64,000 nucleotides of DNA from the NCBI GenBank assembly GCA_027489335.1, contig JAIXZX010000008.1:1-64000 (forward strand), read 5' to 3'. A program made the translations under genes and the position numbers. Each line of letters starts with the position of its first letter. Position 1 is the stretch's first letter. Of this stretch, positions 43,789-47,714 are shown in pieces. The notes under the pieces were generated by a model, which ran no database searches, was not told the origin of the DNA, and worked only from the letters and a program-made list of their open reading frames with translations. Source of the stretch: Caulobacteraceae bacterium (GTDB lineage: Bacteria > Pseudomonadota > Alphaproteobacteria > Caulobacterales > Caulobacteraceae).

Positions 43789-43995
43789 ATGCGCAAGACC
43801 CTGATTGTGATCCCCATCGCCTTTTCCGCCCTGGCCCTCGCGGCCTGCGGCACCACCGTGACTGAACGCGCGGCCACCGGCGCCCTCGGCGGCGCCGCCG
43901 TCGGCGGAGCGGTCAGCGGTGATCTGAGCGGCGCGGCCGCCGGCGCGGCCATCGGTGGTGTCGCCGGTGCGGCGACCACGCCTCGCCGGAACTAG
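43789..43995 (+). CDS. Small glycine-zipper lipoprotein
   Basis: 68 residues. Signal peptide with lipobox LAAC (Cys20), then a run of GxxxG/AxxxG units (GALGGAAVGGAVSGDLSG), a glycine zipper expected to insert in a membrane. It resembles entericidin and other small outer-membrane lipoproteins. AGAGGAG precedes the ATG. Function unknown. Confidence 0.75.
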   Translation: MRKTLIVIPIAFSALALAACGTTVTERAATGALGGAAVGGAVSGDLSGAAAGAAIGGVAGAATTPRRN

Positions 43996-44049: not shown

Positions 44050-44084
44050 AAAAAAGGGCCGGCCCATTGTTGGGGCCGGCCCTT
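44050..44084 (-). terminator. Strong terminator for the minus-strand transcript
   Basis: GGGCCGGCCC (44056-44065) and GGGCCGGCCC (44073-44082) form a perfect 10-bp stem, extended by AA/TT, with a 7-nt loop. On the minus strand it is followed by TTTTTT (44055-44050). It lies 46 nt after the stop of the 21-codon ORF. The plus strand has only a poor U-tract. Confidence 0.9.
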
Positions 44085-44129
44085 CCATTGTCGGACCGCT
44101 AGTGCGGCGGCCCGCAACCTTAGCAGCGC

Positions 44130-44195
44130 TTAGGCGCGAACCTCATGGGAGGCCCAGGCTACGGTCACCGACTGCGACAGATGACAATGAGACAC
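44130..44195 (-). CDS. 21-codon small ORF with full-length Shine-Dalgarno
   Basis: GTG start at 44195, TAA at 44130-44132. The peptide begins MSHCHLSQ and ends SHEVRA, 21 residues in total with three His and one Cys. The upstream sequence matches the complement of the 16S rRNA 3' end over 17 nt (44195-44211 on the plus strand), far longer than usual. AGGAGG is 7 nt from the GTG. A strong terminator follows. The cNMP-patatin gene ends 95 nt upstream on the same strand. It may be a leader peptide, a microprotein or a ribosome-binding RNA. No family was recognised. Confidence 0.6.
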   Translation of the reverse strand: MSHCHLSQSVTVAWASHEVRA

Positions 44196-44211
44196 TGGAT
44201 CACCTCCTTTC
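44195..44211 (-). promoter_or_regulatory. 17-nt extended Shine-Dalgarno (complement of 16S 3' end)
   Basis: Reading on the minus strand GAAAGGAGGTGATCCAG, the last G being the first base of the GTG codon. It pairs with all of CUGGAUCACCUCCUUUC at the 16S 3' terminus. Typical sites in this window pair over 4-6 nt. Confidence 0.8.
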
Positions 44212-44289
44212 AATTGTTGAACACCACAACGAATATGGGATGGGATTTCGGGTTTGGCAAACCCAAGTGTGCGTGATCGCTGCGACGTT

Positions 44290-46059
44290 TCAGCGCCAGC
44301 CTTTTCCGCCGCCCTCGCTGAGCGCCTGGCGCCGCCGGAGCTCGGTGACAGGGACCGTCAGCCGGTCCAGCGCCTGCCCCATGGCCAGGTAGCCCGCATT
44401 GACCGCCGGGTCGTAGGCCTCCCAGTTTCGAATCTCGACCCCGGTCATGTCGGGGGTGACCAGCAGGTCGACGCTTTCGCGCGCCGCCCGCAGATCGCGG
44501 CCTGTAGGCACCGTGGCCGCCCGCATGAGCAGTGACACGATCGGCGGGCCCTGCCGCCACGCGCCTGAGAGAACCCAGCGCAGCACCGAGGAGGGCCTGG
44601 CCACGTCCCGGGCGGTGATGCTGCGGCCTCGGGTGACATCGACGCCGACCACAGGCCCTAGGTGCATGGCGCTCATCACATCGGCGGGGAAGTTGTTCAG
44701 CACCGCGCCGTCCACAAGCACGTCATCCCCCTGGGTCGCCGGCGGCATGACGCCGGGCAGGGCGATGGTGGCGCGCAGGGCGTCGGTGAGCCGGCCGCTG
44801 CGATGGATTTGATAGGCGCCGGTGGTCAGGTTCGAGGAGACGGCGAAGAAGGGCAGCCATAGATCGGAAATGCTGGTGTCGCCGAAGTGCTCGTACAGCC
44901 TGGCTCGTACCTTCTCCCCGCGGGTCATGGCCAGGAGGGGGAAGGCGATGTCGTCCAGCGGGCTGGAGGAGACGAAGGCGTCACGGATCCGGCGGTCGGC
45001 CTCTTCGTCCGACCAGCCCATGCCCAGGCCTGCCGCCACGATCGCCCCCATGGAGGCGCCCCCGATGAAATCGATGGGCACGCCGCGTTCACGTAGTACC
45101 CGGATCGCGCCGACATGGGCATAGGCCCGGGCGCCGCCGCCCGACAGGACCAGGCCCACCGACTGGCCGGTCAGCACCCGGGCCAGACGCGCGGCGTCGG
45201 CCTCGTCGTCCCGGCGCATATGGAACAGCCGGGCCGGTTGGGCGGCCTTGACCCAGGCCTCCGATGTCCGCGGGGCCGGGCCGTCCCGGGGGTGCAGCAG
45301 GATCAGGTCGACCAGCTGGTGCGCCTGAAGCGGCTGGGCAGGGTGCAGGATGATGTTGGACGGCGGCTGGGCGGCGGCCTTGCCGATGCGGAACAGGCGG
45401 TCCACCTGCCGGGCCACCACCGCCCGCCAGCCCAGGTCCTGACCCTCGGCGGCGTACAGGACGAAGTCGTGGGTCCGTTCGACCTCGGAGTACCATTCGG
45501 TCGGCGCCATCGCCGCCTCGGCGCCGACGACGGTCACCGTGTAGCCCTGGCGCATGATGTGGCGGGCGATCCGGTCCACCAGCGGGCGAACCGCCACAGG
45601 CTCGCCCACCGTGACGAAACCATATACCGAGGGCTCGCCGCCGGCGGTGCGATGGGTCTGGCGACGGCTGCGCCTGACGATTAGCTGGGCGAGCTCCAGC
45701 ATGACGGCTGGGTCTTCCTCGGCGGCTTCCAGGAACAGGTCCCGGGGCAGGGCGAAGACTTCGGAATCCCGCAGAGCCACCACCCGCGCGGTGTGCGGGG
45801 TGCCAGACAACAGGGACATTTCCCCGGCCGGCTCCCCTGGACGGATCACGCCCAGAAATTCCGGCTCTTGGCCGTCCTCATGACGGAAGGCGCCGAGGCG
45901 GCCGGCGCGCACGAAATAGAGATGATCAGCGGCTTCGCCCGGCTCGAACAGCACCCCGCCGCCAGGCAGCGAGAACCATGTCGCATCGCCCTCCACCTGC
46001 TCATCGAAGAACAGCTGGGCCAGGGCCGTGTCGCTGGGAAGGTCCGGCAGTCGTGCCAC
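44290..46059 (-). CDS. cNMP-binding plus patatin-like phospholipase (NTE family)
   Basis: 589 residues. A cyclic-nucleotide-binding domain (about 15-135; [29 protein letters not shown] is its core) precedes a middle region and a patatin domain (about 300-490). The patatin domain has the oxyanion loop [14 protein letters not shown], nucleophile Ser336 in GASMG and Asp450 in [10 protein letters not shown]. This is the neuropathy-target-esterase type of serine phospholipase, probably at the inner membrane and possibly regulated by cNMP. Start taken as GTG 46059, 41 bp from the divergent mccB. Confidence 0.85.
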
Positions 46060-46100
46060 AGTCGGAGAGCCTAGCGTGTGACGGCGCGCGGGGCTATGCC

Positions 46101-47714
46101 ATGCGTATGACGAGGCTAACTTCCTCCATCGACACGGCTTCCGAGGCATTTCAGACCCAGGCTCAGCTGAATCGCGGCCTGGTTGACCAGCTTCGGGCGC
46201 AGATGGCGCAAGCCGCCCTGGGCGGACCGGCCGCCGCGCGCGAGCGGCACGAATCACGGGGCAAGCTGTTGCCCCGGGACCGGGTCATGCGCCTGTTGGA
46301 CCCCGGTGCGCCCTTTCTGGAGATCGGCGCCCTGGCCGCCCACGGTCTCTATGACGACGAGGCGCCGGGCGCAGGCGTGATCGCCGGCGTCGGTCGAGTG
46401 TCTGGCCGCGAGGTGATGATCCTCGCCAACGACGCCACGGTGAAGGGCGGGGCCTATTTCCCCATGACCGTGAAGAAGCACCTGCGGGCCCAGGAGATCG
46501 CCCTGCAGAACCGTCTGCCGTGTGTCTATCTGGTTGATTCCGGCGGGGCCAACCTGCCGCATCAGGCCGAGGTGTTTCCCGACCGAGACCATTTTGGCCG
46601 CATCTTCTTCAATCAGGCCCAGATGAGCGCCGCAGGCATCGCCCAGATCGCCTGCGTCATGGGTTCGTGCACCGCCGGCGGGGCCTATGTGCCGGCCATG
46701 TCCGACGAGACCGTGATCGTTCGCGGGCAGGGGACCATCTTCCTCGGCGGCCCGCCTCTGGTGAAGGCCGCCACCGGCGAAGTGATCAGCGCCGAGGAGC
46801 TGGGCGGCGCCGACACCCACGGCCGCCGCTCGGGCGTCGTGGACCACGTGGCCGAAAACGACGAGCACGCTCTGACCATCGTCCGGTCCATCATCGCCAA
46901 CCTGAACACCACCAAGAGCCACGAGATGGCCCTGGCCGAGCCACGACCCCCGGCCTTCGATCCGGAGGAGCTCTACGGCCTCATCCCCGGCGACGTGCGT
47001 GCGCCCTATGATGTGCGCGAGGTCATCGCCCGTATCGTCGACGGCTCGGACTTCGACGAGTTCAAGGCGCTTTACGGCACGACCCTGGTCTGCGGCTTTG
47101 CGCGCATCTGGGGTTATCCTGTCGCCATCCTGGCCAATAACGGCGTGCTGTTCTCAGAGAGCGCGCTGAAGGGCGCCCACTTCATCGAGCTGGCCTGCAA
47201 ACGGAAGATCCCGCTGGTCTTCCTGCAGAACATTTCGGGCTTCATGGTCGGCGGCCGCTATGAGGCCGGCGGCATCGCCAAGGACGGGGCCAAGCTGGTG
47301 ACGGCGGTGGCCTGCGCCGAGGTCCCCAAGTTCACCGTCCTGATCGGCGGCTCCTTCGGGGCCGGCAATTACGGCATGTGCGGTCGGGCCTATTCGCCCC
47401 GCTTCCTCTGGACCTGGCCCAACAGCCGGATCAGCGTCATGGGCGGGGAGCAGGCCGCCAGCGTCCTGGCCACTATTCGACGCGACGGCCTGGAAGCCCG
47501 CGGCGAGGCCTGGTCCGATGAGGACGAAGCCGCCTTCAAGGCCCCGGTCAGGGAACGATACGAGACCGAGGGCGATCCCTATTTCGCCACCGCCCGCCTG
47601 TGGGATGATGGGATCATCGATCCCGCCCAGACCCGCGACGTGCTTGGCCTGTCGATTTCTGCGGCGCTCAATGCGCCCGTGCCGGAGACGCGGTTTGGCG
47701 TCTTCCGAATGTGA
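46101..47714 (+). CDS. mccB: Methylcrotonoyl-CoA carboxylase carboxyltransferase subunit
   Basis: 537 residues, acetyl-CoA carboxylase-type carboxyltransferase. Motifs [48 protein letters not shown] and [26 protein letters not shown] are the MCC beta signature and differ from PccB. It carboxylates 3-methylcrotonyl-CoA to 3-methylglutaconyl-CoA in leucine degradation. ATG 46101 (or 46107, two codons later). Confidence 0.94.

Follow-up and report, generated by a model that had tools for sequence, protein, structure and literature searches.

A CC2171-family small RNA with a near-complete complement of the 16S rRNA tail and a conserved short reading frame

Introduction

Some small RNAs have a dual function in that they also encode a small peptide, SgrS/SgrT being an example. 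The rnTrpL/peTrpL RNA of Sinorhizobium is described in the same terms (PMC10117765). Extended Shine-Dalgarno sequences have been described for mRNAs of Staphylococcus aureus, in which pairing with the 16S tail extends past its usual core in the direction of the start codon (PMC13009471). The family closest to the RNA considered here is CC2171, a Caulobacter small RNA that is curated in Rfam (RF01867) as non-coding. The Rfam 15 paper names it among the families improved with R-scape, and a paper on Mesorhizobium reports a CC2171 hit. In the account of ribosome profiling by Schrader et al. 2014 (PMC4117421), the intergenic regions that yield most ncRNAs are untranslated, whereas two ncRNAs predicted earlier do undergo translation. 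The supplement of that study may already record translation of CC2171; in the article listings and text passages that our searches of the Caulobacter and CC2171 literature covered, no description of it was found.

The element discussed below lies in a 64,000-nucleotide stretch of a Caulobacteraceae contig (JAIXZX010000008.1, positions 1 to 64,000), the whole of which is referred to as the window. A sequence-only reading of this DNA had suggested a small RNA that is translated or has a dual function, initiates very strongly and forms a short transcript of its own, and comparison with relatives supports that suggestion. It is fairly probable, on this comparative evidence, that the RF01867 element is a mini-mRNA which has a short transcript to itself and is translated, and in which ribosome engagement is what has been conserved and the peptide has lineage-specific roles.

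Identity and layout of the gene

The compact gene spans 44219 to about 44052 on the minus strand. Its RNA (44055..44219, minus) covers positions 1-159 of the RF01867 covariance model, which matches 44219-44055 full-length with 100 bits against a gathering score of 75 (E about 1e-19); the 5' end near CAACAA at 44219 is the one placed by this model. No known family had at first been recognised for the element; its match to CC2171 above the gathering score supplies one. Both the long-range helix and the 3' terminator of the Rfam consensus are present in the window RNA.

A promoter-like TTGCCA-17-CATATT (44232..44260, minus; promoter scan, 0.1 expected in shuffles) suggests that the RNA has a transcription unit of its own. 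Relatives have weak base preferences at similar places, with a better conserved TGTTCAACA downstream of these. The 5' tail of the RNA, CAACAATT, precedes 44211 and is followed by GAAAGGAGGTGATCCAG (44195..44211, minus), a 17-nt complement of the 16S tail that forms an extended Shine-Dalgarno sequence and whose last base is the G of a GTG start codon. From this GTG a 21-codon ORF runs to a TAA stop (44130..44195, minus), with start, frame and stop kept in relatives. The GTG at 44195 and the 21 minus-strand codons had been read correctly from the letters, the TAA ending at 44130, and translation bears out the peptide as it was described, that is, the initiator followed by SHCHLSQSVTVAWASHEVRA, with SHCH directly after Met and three His and one Cys in all.

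Codons 3-5 hold CATTGTC (44183..44189, minus), the 5' arm of a helix whose 3' arm, GACAATG (44086..44092, minus), stands directly 5' of the terminator; RNAalifold pairs, covariation and the minimum-energy fold all place these two arms together. The intrinsic terminator (44052..44086, minus; terminator scan, 0.3 expected in shuffles) has a 14-pair stem as scanned, and its first base doubles as the last base of the helix 3' arm. The GGGCCGGCCC stem begins 47 nt past the ORF stop, one more than the 46 originally counted, while the stem itself and the six T behind its second arm are present as had been noted. In the RNAalifold alignment the terminator stem is conserved among relatives, with changes on both sides. 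Directly past the terminator, the plus strand carries a convergent small ORF (43789-43995), Gly/Ala-rich and lipoprotein-like by eye.

Distribution and genomic neighbours

A covariance-model search of the order found RF01867 matches at E <= 0.001 in 148 of 299 genomes, 41 of the 299 lying above the gathering cut-off, and no match in eight of the genomes listed for the window's own family. From the matches listed, 150 loci (30 + 120) were taken, and the ribosome site with a start codon is present in 141 of them. Seven of the nine loci without the site are second places in genomes that have a proper copy; the site-less place in G213 is the sole RF01867 match of that genome, and another, L089, is cut close by the end of its contig, the genome having a further copy. 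A search of phage DNA gave no match to the element. The possibility that the element is a remnant of an rRNA gene was considered and rejected.

In the class as a whole, taken as Alphaproteobacteria on the basis of a Caulobacter control and of record titles, 85 of 385 genomes carry a start signature of the form AAAGGAGGTGNTCN{1,3}TGTC, against 2 of 385 for a reversed-pattern control. A close variant of the signature was found in 64 of 135 genomes inside the class and in one of 263 outside it, the single outside genome reading TTTTGTC. A scan of genome contigs gave at least 117 signature stretches; the 80 record titles listed for such stretches are ones which we take to be alphaproteobacterial, three of them reading only 'Proteobacteria bacterium'. 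Members occur in Caulobacter and in records titled Rhizobium, Bradyrhizobium, Sphingomonas and Ruegeria. In two scans of wider loci the RF01867 cut-off was passed by 4 of 20 and 2 of 8, the other six of the eight matching below it with E from 8e-12 to 0.012, and no other Rfam family overlaps the elements among these 20 and 8 loci. At one locus (L224, 954-1050, minus) a gene for the bacterial small SRP RNA lies close downstream of the element. That a plus-strand 16S-like stretch and a random ORF met by chance would fit the CTGGATCACCTCCTTTC on the plus strand and the shortness of a 21-codon ORF; conservation across the class and an Rfam hit with E about 1e-19 refute this, and we give it virtually no credence.

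Upstream of the RNA, the window carries a patatin-like phospholipase with a cyclic-nucleotide-binding domain (44290-46257, minus). Of the 53 loci of the window's family (f1), 23 have a patatin gene upstream in the same orientation; such a gene is present in 0 of 26, 1 of 43, 0 of 4 and 0 of 15 loci of f2, f3, f4 and f5, which makes 1 of 88 over these four other families of the order; the figures are 1 of 86 for the class sample and 2 of 117 for the genome-contig loci, where the sets overlap a little and the flanks are short, often only 1.2-1.5 kb. In fifteen named loci, compared by position and by protein starts, no common neighbour was seen. Judged from these flanks, no single gene accompanies the RNA throughout. 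A role as leader peptide or attenuator of some adjacent gene, such as the leader or tail of the cNMP-patatin transcript that had been proposed, would make sense of a short ORF beside a structured RNA and a terminator, and of the patatin gene found upstream in 23 of the 53 f1 loci. The RNA, however, is located downstream of the patatin gene and has its own promoter-like site and terminator, the ORF past that terminator is convergent, so that the layout does not indicate control of a downstream gene, and patatin is not upstream in most other loci. Such a role is therefore very remote.

A ribosome site that matches the 16S tail

The window's own assembly (3.10 Mb) lacks a 16S gene, and the 3' end was read in four relatives, two representing the order (G001, G006) and two the window's family (G270, G285); six further genomes queried alongside the latter two gave only the small RNA or nothing. 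All four ends read CTGGATCACCTCCTTTCT, hence all 17 nt at 44195-44211 are complementary to them, the G of GTG included, and the full pairing claimed for this stretch is confirmed. In the 3.10-Mb assembly an exact AAAGGAGGTGATC occurs once, at the RNA locus, and seven further places have it with one mismatch. The full 17-mer is present in 34 of the 141 order loci that carry the site (among the matches listed, with GGAGGT required for the count) and variants of it in the remaining loci; where the site is present, the start codon lies 5-7 nt from GGAGG. An overlong Shine-Dalgarno sequence can inhibit translation.

Sequestration of the site by an anti-Shine-Dalgarno stretch in cis was considered as a general rule and rejected. 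Within the window's family such pairing is not above that of shuffled sequences (51 RNAs, mean P 0.45), and it exceeds shuffles, and stands out, only in RNAs of the Rhodobacterales type (24 RNAs, mean P 0.06) and the Bradyrhizobium type (8 RNAs, mean P 0.06); these type names, like SH, MSS and Sphingomonadales below, follow record titles. In five Rhodobacterales-type loci (L216, L246, L251, L254, L268) the 16S anti-Shine-Dalgarno sequence recurs 3' of the ORF as (C)ACCTCC(TT), which could pair with the ribosome site of the same RNA. Sequences resembling the 16S 3' tail (GGATCACCTCC, GGATCGCCTCCT or GGGTCACCTC) were also seen within or just past the RNA in scattered lineages (L116, L140, L161, L311).

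Conservation of the reading frame

Among the matches listed, the 141 order loci give 127 distinct ORFs that begin at the same place with ATG (78) or GTG (49) and end with TGA (50), TAA (47) or TAG (30). All except two of them (12 and 14 codons) end at 18-30 codons, a proportion of 125/127 to be compared with 9% and 25% in frames +1 and +2. When relatedness is limited by clustering ORFs at 70% identity, 15 of 15 clusters in the window's family keep the ORF length (mean shuffle probability 0.16, P about 5e-13), and three further families of the order give 8 of 8, 18 of 20 and 5 of 5, with mean shuffle probabilities, the window's family included, of 0.16-0.23. In the wider sets, clusters with an ORF of 14-36 codons number 39/39, 28/29, 21/22, 12/14 and 6/6, and among the complete ORFs behind the signature patterns 82 of 85 and 114 of 116 have such a length, none exceeding 60 codons; as the site and the TGTC of the start are built into the patterns that drew the wider sets, neither is independent evidence in them. 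At ordinary AAGGAG-ATG sites of the same fetched loci, the frames opened have a median of 104.5 codons, 14 of 74 being short. The start is TTG in 5 of 86 class loci and ATG or GTG in the others. Across relatives, both the frame and the Shine-Dalgarno sequence are conserved.

The frame is not preserved in the manner of an ordinary gene throughout. Two loci (L043, L062) have an extra base just past GTG, by which the RNA sequence CTCATTGTC, itself kept, is read as ISLS instead of SHC; their ORFs have the usual length and the usual end. In pairwise alignments of f1 ORFs, 54 of 70 gaps are of 1 nt and 13 of 70 are multiples of three, which would fit compensated frameshifts of the kind seen in these two loci and not a clean ordinary-gene pattern. 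The f2 ORFs have no gaps inside; 3' of the ORF, these pairs have 245. GC content is highest at codon position 3 in f1 (0.82 vs 0.66 and 0.63), f3 and f5, and not in f2 or f4, so that as support this measure is weak.

These data bear on the view that CC2171 is a purely non-coding small RNA, whose GGAGG region pairs with 16S rRNA or with C-rich sRNAs or mRNAs and whose ORF is incidental. Curation by Rfam as an sRNA and a strong covarying structure agree with that view, as does the report that most Caulobacter ncRNA regions are untranslated (PMC4117421). Against it, ATG or GTG stands at the start position of every one of the 141 order loci that carry the site (among the matches listed, in a search that used these two codons), and the position of the stop is kept with all three stops in use, which leaves an incidental ORF quite improbable.

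RNA fold and the long-range helix

The window RNA folds at -82.8 kcal/mol (z = -5.4), and none of 200 shuffles is as stable. In this fold the ribosome site is mostly exposed, and the CATTGTC/GACAATG helix closes all that lies between codon 3 and the terminator. The partners change together in relatives, to CATAGTT/GACTATG (L016), CATTCTC/GAGAATG (L033), CACCAAA/TTTGGTG (L038) and, in f2, GTGAG/CTCAC. When each of the 42 arm classes is represented once, the score is 14.30 for true pairs and 11.64 (sd 0.40) for swapped ones, and 0 of 1000 permutations reach the former. This test was restricted by position, and its window did not take in the arm of the f1 VSHLS group or of several f5 rows; an earlier position-free version separated poorly (16.4 observed, 15.1 swapped). 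RNAalifold recovers the helix without prompting from 37 SH-type RNAs, in which 96.3% of cells are paired and the covariation score is reached in 0 of 500 shuffles. In 34 MSS-type RNAs the helix is 73.2% paired and the score is again reached in 0 of 500, with two of five covariation measures weaker (both-side changes in 35 of 500 and further pair types in 14 of 500 shuffles). The SH-type set was formed from 46 cluster representatives by dropping eleven and adding L016 and L033 for their differing arms, and the MSS-type set from 40 by dropping six; as these were selected representatives, the counts lean somewhat towards the helix, and since the family itself served to define the helix, slid controls work partly in its favour.

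Of 72 MSS-type RNAs, 63 have the motif GCRRYCTY between +53 and +60 relative to the start, one more has it at +72 and eight are without it, and it falls in the 'EQP' frame in 57 and in other frames in 7. An RNA motif at such a near-fixed distance supports a role at the level of the RNA. Of the 24 Rhodobacterales-type RNAs, 20 have a similar motif, GGCARMCC, at +57 or +58, past the stop.

Is the peptide under selection?

Synonymous change was counted over single-difference codons in ORFs of the same length and expressed as observed over expected for each frame, in pairs that are not independent. An excess is seen in f2, with 630 synonymous changes vs 304 expected (2.07; other frames 0.82 and 0.79), and in f5, with 120 vs 71 (1.69; other frames 1.13 and 0.95), and the peptide looks to be under selection in at least these two related families, where it likely has an additional role. 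Three f3 groups give 1.13, 1.24 and 1.56, the last with frame 0 highest (others 1.09 and 1.05), by which the absence of peptide selection is, in these comparisons, not uniform. Groups mainly of the window's family, two of which hold a few f3 sequences, range from 0.68 to 1.43, each with another frame higher. Outside the order, ratios are 0.74 and 0.82 for the SH type, 0.88 for the Sphingomonadales type, 1.0 for the Bradyrhizobium type (18 codons only), 1.44 for 18-codon Rhodobacterales-type ORFs (frame +1 1.27), and, in the MSS type, 1.33 for 26-codon ORFs (other frames 0.87 and 1.01) with 0.90 and 0.86 in two other groups.

The above ratios speak both for and against a conserved microprotein gene, in which a peptide of 18-30 aa is the product and RNA structure only tunes its synthesis. 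The frame-0 excess in f2, f5 and one f3 group argues for it, as do the Rhodobacterales-type ORFs and the 26-codon MSS-type ORFs. There is, however, no clear excess in f1 or in the SH, Sphingomonadales, Bradyrhizobium and two MSS groups. What look like peptide motifs are in part motifs of the RNA: the stretch behind 'EQP', present in 64 of 72 MSS-type RNAs, lies in another frame in 7, and SHCH coincides with a helix arm. A peptide gene as the general explanation thus seems unlikely. Taken over all comparisons, conservation of start, frame and stop is wider than that of the amino acids.

The His/Cys-rich beginning had been thought to suggest metal sensing. The stretch pairs with GACAATG and covaries with it, relatives read VSHSF, VSHRR, VSHQK, VSHLS or MSSEK in its place, so that across them His and Cys are not conserved as residues, and L043 and L062 keep CTCATTGTC in the RNA while reading another frame. 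Metal sensing is not borne out, and the conservation of SHCH is, on this comparative evidence, a constraint on the RNA as a helix arm. Searches of typed peptides matched NCBIfam in 0 of 5 and Pfam in 0 of 4 cases, where peptides this short may be unable to score. Bradyrhizobium-type loci such as L303, L289 and L214 have a 14-codon ORF with the near-invariant end KRCHLAGIAR, and as the DNA is conserved too, constraint on the peptide and on the RNA are indistinguishable there. At four loci (L166, L319, L243, L244) the same extended site precedes ORFs of 55-59 codons with a signal-peptide-like start, and some lineages may thus have a longer, secreted form.

Ribosome engagement and comparison with known systems

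If the element is a translated mini-mRNA, its single-stranded 5' tail would present a near-complete complement of the 16S tail directly before the start codon, where a 30S subunit would bind the exposed site with pairing far beyond the usual six or so bases. As the closing helix begins three bases past the start codon, accommodation would have to open it; the ribosome would then cross about 20 codons and leave before the 3' arm, and ribosome binding would thereby be tied to how the RNA folds. As f1 keeps start, frame and stop with no clear purifying selection on its amino acids, the conserved job there is probably ribosome engagement itself, which may serve to switch the fold, stability or pairing capacity of the RNA or to sense free ribosomes. 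The step from the peptide to engagement is drawn from a missing signal in very short ORFs, in which power is low. By inference, the RNA may sense ribosomes or have other RNAs as its targets. A more specific account, offered tentatively as possible and still doubtful, is that the RNA captures 30S subunits through pairing along the entire free 16S tail, that translating a sequence-indifferent mini-ORF of almost constant length flips the helix, and that the state of the RNA would thereby report the availability of ribosomes and set its stability or its action on other RNAs; the second 16S-matching stretch of the Rhodobacterales type could compete in cis with the ribosome for the site.

What makes the element of wider interest is that a family curated as 'non-coding' has conserved its start, frame and stop in many members of the class, and that the ribosome site before them is about as strong as base pairing can make it. 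Should translation be kept while the peptide is free, it would offer a clean natural case for studying how a regulatory RNA is affected by ribosome engagement as such. The AAAGGAGGTGNTCN{1,3}TGTC pattern provides a simple signature for annotating these genes.

Among described systems, CC2171 as it stands in Rfam RF01867 has the same 5' site, helix and terminator as the window RNA. The Rfam entry is filed as non-coding, whereas the family as analysed here keeps start, frame and stop and has related RNAs well below the cut-off in other orders. With the dual-function RNAs SgrS/SgrT and rnTrpL/peTrpL it shares a short transcript with a small ORF; unlike them, it has a near-complete 16S-tail complement as its site, its first codons lie in the closing helix and its peptide is mostly unconstrained. 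Pairing with 16S rRNA past the core towards the start codon is common to the window RNA and the extended Shine-Dalgarno mRNAs of S. aureus, where it is a feature of many ordinary mRNAs, whereas here a longer form of it (13-17 nt) belongs to one family of small RNAs.
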